Of a stretch of 64,000 nucleotides of DNA, positions 8,650-21,794 are shown in pieces (within the stretch, counting starts at the first letter, position 1; each line of letters begins with the position of its first letter). Under the pieces are notes generated by a model. The model searched no databases. It was not told where the DNA came from and saw nothing but the letters and a program-made list of their open reading frames with translations. Source of the stretch: a virus. The stretch is taken from positions 124,001 through 188,000 of IMG/VR virus record IMGVR_UViG_3300023202_000383; one strand, given 5' to 3'. The position numbers and the translations under genes were made by a program.

Positions 8650-8799
8650 CCCATTCTGCTGCCAAGGTCCTTACGCTCCCCCAAGTGAATTAGCCCCGCT
8701 CGGCCTCGAACCGAGTTTTCCGGATTTAAAGCCCGGCGTGCTAACCAGGTACACTACGGGGCCACTTCCCGGACCAAGGATGACGTCCAGCAGGATGGG
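8650..8799. repeat. imperfect inverted repeat flanking the minus-strand tRNA
   Basis: 8650-8661 pairs with 8788-8799 over 12 positions (one G-T), and GGTCC 8666-8670 with GGACC 8771-8775. They bracket the only minus-strand tRNA of the window. Confidence 0.5.
8691..8763 (-). tRNA. tRNA with anticodon TTA (predicted ochre suppressor)
   Basis: A full cloverleaf on the minus strand: acceptor GGCCCCG/CGGGGCT, D-stem GTGT/GCAC, anticodon stem CCGGG/TCCGG with loop CTTTAAA (C32, T33, TTA, A37, A38), 4-nt variable loop, T-stem CTCGG/CCGAG, loop TTCGAGG, discriminator A. All usual conserved positions (T8, A9, A14, GG in the D-loop, A21, T33, TTC, A58) are present. Anticodon UUA pairs with UAA. The acceptor stem is the same as that of tRNA-Arg(ACG) at 10344. 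Its amino acid is unknown. Confidence 0.75.
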
Positions 8800-19994: not shown

Positions 19995-20067
19995 CCGCAT
20001 TTAGCTCAATTTGGTAGAGCGCTCGCTTTGGGGCGAGAGGTTGCAAGTTCAAATCTTGCAATGCGGA
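19995..20067 (+). tRNA. tRNA-Pro(TGG), unusual anticodon loop
   Basis: Acceptor CCGCATT/AATGCGG, D-arm GCTC/GAGC, T-arm GCAAG/CTTGC, discriminator A, TT follows. The anticodon arm CTCG-CTTTGGGG-CGAG has an 8-nt loop with 4 bp, or a 6-nt loop with 5 bp, not the normal 7. Confidence 0.82.
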
Positions 20068-20102: not shown

Positions 20103-21020
20103 ATGAAATTCAATGAAATCGACTGGGATCTAATACAATCAGATTATGATTCGGGCCTTACTCTTAGGCAGGTTGGCAAGAGACATAAAATTGGCAATTC
20201 TAGTATCCATAAAGCACAAAAATCAGGACTTCTTAAGACTACGCGGAAGCGATCGTTATCAGAAGAGCATAGAAAAAAGCTTTCTGATAGTATGAAAAAA
20301 GCTGGTATAAGACCGCCCACAACTGTCAAGAGAGAAATTTCAAGCACTAAAGCATGTACTAAATGTACATGCTTGAAACCTATTAATCAATTCCATAAAA
20401 AAGATGGAGCATATGATGGTAGGCAATCAATATGCAAATCGTGCCGCAATATTCATGGTAGAAAATATATGTGCAAGCCGCATATAAACAAAAAACTCAA
20501 GAAACGAAAAGAAGAAATAAAATACAGAAATCAGAGATATATTAAAGAATATTTGTCGATGCATTCATGCAAGTGTGGTGTCGATGACATCAGACTTCTT
20601 GAATTCCACCATCTTAAAAATAAAAAATATGAAGTCCATCAAATGGTGTGGCACAAGTTAGAATCCATAGATAAAGAAATCGCAAAATGTGTTGTTTTGT
20701 GTGTTAATTGTCATAGAAGAGAAACAAATAAAGATAACCCTAGAGAGAATCAGAAGCATCGCAGGGCCATAAAATACAAATTAATAGAAGAAATTCATGG
20801 TACTAAATGTGTGGAGTGTGGGCTTGACGATAAGATAATTATGGATTTAAACCATATCGACCCAACGACCAAATTATTCAATATTGGCGGGTGGTCTGCG
20901 GGCGATACTGATGTATTGATTAAAGAGATAAAGAAATGTGAGCTTATCTGCCCTAATTGTCATCGTCTCAAAACTATTACACAGTCCGACAATTACCTTC
21001 ACAGGATAAAGGAGGCCTAA
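20103..21020 (+). CDS. HTH + double zinc-ribbon/HNH homing endonuclease, 305 aa
   Basis: Residues 1-45 are a helix-turn-helix (LRQVGKRHKIGNSSIHKAQ), then a zinc ribbon (CTKCTCLKPINQFHKKDG, CKSC). Two HNH-like units follow: LLEFHHLKNKK...CVVLCVNCHRRE and LNHIDPTTKLF...CELICPNCHRLK. Free-standing mobile gene between tRNA-Pro and the release factor; GGAGG at its 3' end serves the next gene. Confidence 0.85.
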   Translation: MKFNEIDWDLIQSDYDSGLTLRQVGKRHKIGNSSIHKAQKSGLLKTTRKRSLSEEHRKKLSDSMKKAGIRPPTTVKREISSTKACTKCTCLKPINQFHKKDGAYDGRQSICKSCRNIHGRKYMCKPHINKKLKKRKEEIKYRNQRYIKEYLSMHSCKCGVDDIRLLEFHHLKNKKYEVHQMVWHKLESIDKEIAKCVVLCVNCHRRETNKDNPRENQKHRRAIKYKLIEEIHGTKCVECGLDDKIIMDLNHIDPTTKLFNIGGWSAGDTDVLIKEIKKCELICPNCHRLKTITQSDNYLHRIKEA

Positions 21021-21021
21021 A

Positions 21022-21794
21022 ATGGCCAGGAAACCAAGAATACCGGTTAAGAACAGGGGGCGGCTTTGACTCCGCTAAGAATGGTGGAGTAAGGGGGTGT
21101 CTTTGAAAATGCCACTGAAATTATCGTCGAAATCCAATTTGGCGAAGGTGGCGATGATAGCAAGTTGTTTGTGGACGACCTGTTATCTGCTTACTTGAAA
21201 TATGCCAAGTCGCTCGGTTTTAAGTCCGATCTGATATTCTCAGATAACGGGCATGCTACAATTAAAATCATTGGTAACAATGTTTGGAAGGCTTTTAGAT
21301 ATGAGCCTGGTAAACATTGTGTTCAGCGTATCCCACCAACAGAGAGCAAGGGTAGAGCGCAGACTTCTATTGTTTCTGTGGCTGTGTTGCCGATACCGCC
21401 CAAGATAGGCACTAAGCTTAAATCGAGTGATCTCAAAATTGAGAGGGTTAACCTCGGTGGAAAGGGCGGACAGCACCAGAATAAGACTCTATCTGGTTGC
21501 AGAATGACTCATATTCCAACTGGCCTTAAAGCAACCATCAATGGTAGAGATTACCATAGCAATGAGCGGGAAGCTAAGAGGATACTGGCTGCTAGAGTTC
21601 AGGAGCTTAAACAATCTAAAGCCAATGCTAATTACTCCGCAAAAAGAGTTGAGCAACTTGGGGGCGGAGGCAGGAGCGATAAGGTGAGAACTTACAACTT
21701 CATTAAATCTAGGGTTGTAGACCATAATCTTGGCACTAAGACCAGGAACATCAAGCAAGTGATGAAGGGCAACTTTGAGCTGTTGTTGAAATAA
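21022..21794 (+). CDS. peptide chain release factor (RF1-type body) with two prfB-like +1 frameshift sites
   Basis: GGAGG precedes ATG 21022. The frame reads 15 codons to AGG-GGG-CGG-CTT-TGA (21055-21069); +1 shift gives 12 codons to AGG-GGG-TGT-CTT-TGA (21092-21106); a second +1 shift enters the main frame at GAA 21105. Both sites copy the E. coli prfB signal (AGGGGG, 3 nt, CTTTGA). The joined product is about 256 residues, lacking RF domain 1. Seen: IQFGEGGDDSKLFVDDLL, the stop-recognition region RIPPTESKGRAQTS (PPT, compare PAT of RF1), the catalytic GGQ in LGGKGGQHQNKT, and RSDKVRTYNF as in RF1. It should hydrolyse peptidyl-tRNA at stop codons; the PxT motif predicts UAA/UAG. Confidence 0.88.

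Follow-up and report, generated by a model that had tools for sequence, protein, structure and literature searches.

The window, a 64,000-nucleotide stretch that comprises positions 124001-188000 of a 256,507-bp virus record, originates from a giant phage and contains a gene for a short RF1-like release factor that is read in three frames (Table 1). Its upstream neighbour is an HNH endonuclease ORF (20103-21020), and an ORF of 119 aa with no assigned function forms the other flank. The wider neighbourhood harbors about 25 tRNA genes that are distributed among small ORFs over 25 kb of the window (5258-30108), and HNH endonuclease ORFs adjoin the release-factor gene. Two of the ARAGORN calls are peculiar, namely, a "tRNA-Stop (tta)" at 8690-8764 on the minus strand amid plus-strand tRNAs, which is probably spurious, and a tRNA at 19995-20067 (+) whose called anticodon oddly comprises two bases. 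The genetic code of the phage is the standard one, and UGA is an ordinary stop codon: it terminates 31 of the 82 window ORFs of at least 80 aa and 47 of the 138 ORFs of at least 120 aa across 144 kb of the phage, and none of the alternative codes tested lifts the coding density above the TAA control. The ORF counts and the density test rule out UGA recoding in this phage.

The start codon of the leader ORF (ATG, 21022) is located 6 nt downstream of the Shine-Dalgarno (SD) sequence AAGGAGG. From the leader, two successive +1 shifts lead through a middle segment into the body, thereby joining three frames into one gene with a full product of 256 aa. The frameshifting of bacterial prfB is a textbook example of autoregulatory recoding, and its type of cassette (SD AGGGGG, three nucleotides, CUU and a stop codon) is found twice in the window. 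Shift site 1 is composed of an internal SD, a 3-nt spacer, the slippery CUU, the UGA at 21067-21069 and a C at position +4; shift site 2, with its UGA at 21104-21106, exhibits an A at +4, and the prfB-type +4 C is found at site 1. The first-pass annotation had proposed a UGA sensor on an RF1-like gene; a prfB-type UGA cassette is indeed present, but there are two of them in tandem and not one. The 256,507-bp record contains exactly two copies of the motif RGGGGNNNCTTTGA, each of them at the leader of the short RF1 gene, and the reversed control pattern has no match in the same record. In the frame of the body there is no in-frame start before the first beta strand, and the earliest one is a TTG at 21165 within domain 2. 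The body thus lacks a usable start of its own, and its expression must come in from upstream.

Table 1. Features of the doubly gated release-factor gene in window coordinates, and loci of groups B and C
Feature	Position	Strand	Basis
Shine-Dalgarno AAGGAGG of the leader ORF	21009..21015	+	sequence, path scan
Leader ORF: ATG, 15 codons (MARKPRIPVKNRGRL), UGA end	21022..21069	+	translation
Shift site 1: AGGGGG CGG CTT TGA C	21055..21070	+	sequence, path scan
Middle segment, second frame, 12 codons (GAC ... CTT), UGA end 21104-21106	21068..21106	+	four-letter-word translation
Shift site 2: AGGGGG TGT CTT TGA A	21092..21107	+	sequence, path scan
Short RF1-like body, domains 2-4, 229 codons + TAA (21792-21794)	21105..21794	+	translation, profiles, model, tree
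PPT stop-recognition tripeptide (RF1-type PxT)	21333..21341	+	alignment with E. coli RF1
GGQ peptidyl-tRNA hydrolysis motif	21465..21473	+	sequence, alignment
Group B loci	L062-L125, e.g. L084:3097-3174, L062:3115-3192
Group C loci	L290:892-1250, L293:1007-1370, L295, L297, L041:2992-3110, others

The body (...CVQRIPPTESKGRAQTS...GGKGGQHQNK...RSDKVRTYNF...) had initially been described as RF1-like on account of its PPT and RSDKVRTYNF motifs and as lacking domain 1, and both descriptions hold. Pfam matches domains 2-4 alone, i.e., positions 99-194 of the 194-position PCRF profile plus RF-1. Among the NCBIfam families RF1 ranks first with 224/220 bits, ahead of RF2 (134) and RFH (50). Since domain 1 is missing, the score (219.7 bits; profile match starting at position 102/110) stays below the full-length RF1 cut-off of 423. 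In the alignment, the recognition loop VQRIPPTES corresponds to VQRVPATES of E. coli RF1, and both the PxT and the RF1-type Gln are retained; the RF2 tripeptide SPF is not present in the window factor, which carries PPT at that place. Two positions deviate from the E. coli protein: E123, which contacts the first base, is replaced by Asp in the window factor and in all short relatives, and H197 by Gln in the window factor and roughly half of the members of clade A, the subgroup to which it belongs. An AlphaFold model based on a 20-row alignment (pLDDT 89.9, pTM 0.77) has ribosome-bound RF1 as its best PDB match (TM 0.94, 35% identity), and RF1 entries are at the top of the PDB search; the TM values against ribosome-bound RF2 are mostly 0.81-0.88. 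Sequence and predicted structure thus identify the window factor as an RF1-type release factor without domain 1. According to earlier work quoted in PMC1586002, this domain is dispensable for release and codon specificity, but is required for stimulating nucleotide exchange on RF3.

The phylogenetic analyses are in agreement with this assignment. RF2 forms a separate clade in all three trees (100/99 to 100/100), from which RF1 and the short RF1 are split at 100/100. All short factors represent one clade next to canonical RF1 (99/99, 100/99 and 100/99 in the three trees), and the window factor is located within clade A (31 rows, 100/97). RFH, whose branch length amounted to 4.05, was left out. 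A position inside RF2, which the first-pass annotation had named as the outcome that would turn the arrangement into ordinary autoregulation, was not seen; the window factor groups with RF1 in all three trees, and its membership in RF2 is thereby ruled out. Canonical RF1 (prfA) is the nearest cellular clade and shares domains 2-4, PxT and GGQ with the window factor, which differs by the missing domain 1, the stop-codon gate and its placement in a separate clade (100/99).

The comparison of related genes indicates that nearly every member of the short-RF1 clade is under a stop-codon gate, and that such genes are present in dozens of phages related to that of the window and in a small number of bacteria. 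The upstream path from an ATG to the body was rebuilt for 27 clade A genes, most of them with a recognisable SD. They harbor N-terminal CUU|stop sites with UGA, UAG or UAA, and 7 of the 27 are tandem. The single-site genes use UGA (10), UAG (9) or UAA (1). The tandem genes combine UGA with UGA (the window gene and L275), UAG with UAG (L063 = L003, and L049), UAG with UGA (L051), UAA with UGA (L036 = LR756511) or UAA with UAG (L268), their stops are spaced by 34 to 70 nt, and the frame is always moved by one. Over the 34 sites of the 27 genes the sensor stop is UGA 16 times, UAG 15 times and UAA three times. The P-site codon is CUU at 33 of 34 sites, a figure that is partly conditioned by the scan, which also accepted other slippery codons. 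A +4 C is present at 25 of 34 sites compared with 45 of 258 ordinary ORF ends (17%; p about 1e-12). Anti-SD pairing upstream of 23 sites exceeds that of random windows (p = 3e-5), with several sites lacking a strong SD. Some members deviate from this scheme: L050 and L055 carry an in-frame UGA close to the N terminus in place of the shift site, L277:998-1670 has an in-frame UAG within domain 2 (KKN*LAITL) and no frameshift site, and L047 starts with a plain ATG without any gate. A search of viral contigs for tandem GGGG...CTTTGA/TAG patterns retrieved nearly exclusively coding repeats with a spacing divisible by three, and a release factor was encoded only in the record of L003 itself.

The interior of clade A is poorly resolved, and in the tree the proximal sensor codon switches at least five times and the single or tandem state at least four times. 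One example is the pair L269 and L272, whose bodies are identical at 240 of 241 residues and whose sensors are UAA and UAG, respectively, which documents that the sensor codon can turn over while the factor remains unchanged. There is no correlation between the sensor codon and the H197/Q state (Fisher p = 0.43). The initial notion of an RF2-type sensor on an RF1 gene is accordingly true of the window, but it describes one state of a family-wide device whose sister genes use UAG or UAA. The presence of these codons at the same spot, mostly in combination with an RF1-like loop, suggests that the conserved trait is the sensing of a slow stop and not UGA itself.

Three sister groups contain stop codons in a different arrangement. 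In group B a single in-frame TGA (GGC TGA) occupies a Trp column in 36 of 36 sequences compared at the codon level, and all 71 codons of the other two Trp columns are TGG; the flanking ORFs use TGA as stop. A hairpin starts 8 nt past the UGA and is formed in 94.4% of cells, its pairing falls to 22-44% when it is slid by one to three columns, and 16 double-change cells compared with 5.8 in shuffles are indicative of covariation. The UGA and the hairpin are likely to represent a stimulated UGA-readthrough element in standard-code phages. Group C exhibits a CUU|UGA within domain 2, mostly behind GGAGGGG, at the protein position of the group B UGA; 11 of its 12 tree rows form one clade, and the remaining one (L286) is located in clade A. 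Several members of group C have PPN where others have PPT. In L041 (LR745208.1, a 485-kb phage) the PxT tripeptide is deleted (QRTSNGRIHSS) and the GGQ is kept; its sequence suggests that codon reading was possibly lost or changed. The four genes of group M (L037-L040) stem from phages of 634-735 kb and contain in-frame TGA codons at varying positions, a pattern that appears to fit UGA-recoded megaphages, as expected. They encode PPT and a Gln at position 197, and they are truncated if called under code 11.

Bacterial members of clade A were found in four Ca. Obscuribacterales-type MAGs (G001-G004; L126-L129) that harbor a full RF1 and the short factor, with a full RF2 additionally present in G002 and G004. 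A fifth short copy (L234 in G045) was detected among 53 genomes of the order, and all five short factors are gated by CUU|UAG|C. The neighbouring genes examined encode a methionine sulfoxide reductase, a thioredoxin, an aminotransferase and a Rieske protein, and these surroundings look chromosomal rather than phage-derived.

A slow stop codon in the A site allows the peptidyl-tRNA-Leu to slip from CUU to UUU, and SD pairing as well as the weak-termination +4 C assist the slip. The window gene probably encodes an accessory RF1-type factor that is induced by slowed stop decoding via two successive SD-stimulated CUU/UGA +1 shifts. As long as RF2 decodes UGA promptly, ribosomes would end in the leader and little factor would be made; slowed stop decoding in the infected cell would make the peptidyl-tRNA move from CUU to UUU at each of the two sites, so that the 256-aa protein is produced. 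Serial sites would multiply the two shift probabilities, thus providing a low basal output and a steep response. The sensors of the window would report RF2 function via UGA, and the product has an RF1-type loop, which points to termination-stress sensing or cross-regulation instead of strict self-feedback. UAG-gated relatives would form a true, self-limiting RF1 loop. Compared with them, the logic of the window is less economical, since a UGA sensor lacks feedback on a factor for UAA and UAG. We infer this UAA/UAG specificity, the response to release-factor levels, the shift efficiencies and the benefit to the phage from a gene whose architecture, RF1 affiliation and recurrent gate are documented by sequence comparison.

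A relaxed or switched specificity that includes UGA would turn the cassettes into plain prfB-like negative autoregulation. For a factor that reads all three stops, codon turnover would be neutral; the repeated switches of the sensor codon without a matching change of the recognition loop, the Asp at position 123 of all short factors, the Gln at position 197 that the window factor shares with about half of the clade A members, and the independence of the H197 state from the sensor codon are compatible with this scenario. We nevertheless consider it unlikely, given that the window factor keeps PxT and the RF1 Gln without the SPF of RF2 and that UGA-recoded megaphages, in which the reading of UGA would be harmful, share PPT and Gln 197. 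It is still less probable that the shift sites merely set a low fixed dose or a delay without any sensing. The leader sequences are not conserved and a strong SD is absent from some sites, as expected for such a function, but CUU, +4 C and the stop codon are strongly retained and a sister group has converged on readthrough, which argues for a dependence on stop decoding rather than for mere weak expression. The missing domain 1 is also characteristic of the ribosome-rescue factor RFH (PrfH; PMC1586002), yet RFH has another recognition loop and RtcB as a partner, whereas the window factor has an RF1-like loop, an HNH endonuclease upstream and an RFH score of 50 bits versus a cut-off of 167 in an alignment limited to domain 3; on the basis of this family score we reject an RFH identity as highly improbable. 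A pseudogene or sequencing error that broke an RF1 start twice could account for the three frames, but is practically untenable and refuted by recurrence, since the architecture is found in more than 25 genes of other records with conserved body motifs, and the same gate in independent relatives excludes chance and sequencing error.

The proposed induction of an accessory RF1-type factor by slowed stop decoding has its closest mechanistic equivalent in bacterial prfB, with which the window shares the SD AGGGGG, the 3-nt spacer, CUU, the A-site stop, the weak +4 C and the obligatory shift (PMC5009743). In contrast to prfB, the gene is phage-borne, two serial cassettes precede domain 2 of an RF1-type factor in which domain 1 is missing, and the sensor of its relatives is UGA, UAG or UAA. 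In the substitution study that examined the shift site most extensively, CUU preceded UAG, as it does in such relatives (PMC5009743). Among viral release factors under a double gate, the eRF1 of Mimivirus R726 is the nearest precedent. As in R726 and its Megavirus equivalent mg280 (PMC3521657), a viral release-factor gene crosses two internal stops by recoding, and the stop of the shift site varies among relatives (UAG/UAA in R726/mg280). Those genes, however, are of the eukaryotic/archaeal eRF1 type and combine one readthrough with one frameshift, whereas the window has two prfB-type shifts. The presence of RF1 in UGA-recoded (code 4) phages has already been reported, according to a citation in PMC10746230; their genes (L037-L040) belong to the same short-RF1 clade, but in the window phage the code is standard, and the gene is gated by a frameshift instead of a reassigned codon. 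We found no report of phage RF1 genes with shift sites in the open-licence literature, and the novelty of our finding relates to that scope.

On a broader scale, the short RF1 may represent a distinct third lineage of bacterial-type class-I factors from large phages and a few bacteria. We see about even chances that it is gated by stop decoding through three convergent devices, namely, single or tandem CUU/stop shifts, the internal CUU/UGA and hairpin-stimulated UGA readthrough, with the tandem forms acting as AND gates over one or two stop codons and the whole serving as a general termination-stress switch.

Atkins et al. (2016) stated that no sequenced bacterial RF2 gene has an early in-frame UGA followed by a continuing frame, and that the UAG/RF1 counterpart was likewise unknown, with a giant amoeba virus as the sole exception named (PMC5009743). 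In-frame-stop gates and UAG/RF1 gates both occur in one clade of phage factors with some bacterial members, which also has tandem shift sites. Such gated genes will be overlooked or shortened by gene callers. If the sensing works as proposed, phages would monitor and correct the termination capacity of their hosts, and the natural variants, with UGA, UAG or UAA in single or double form, would be well suited for testing why release-factor genes so frequently come under the control of their own substrate.
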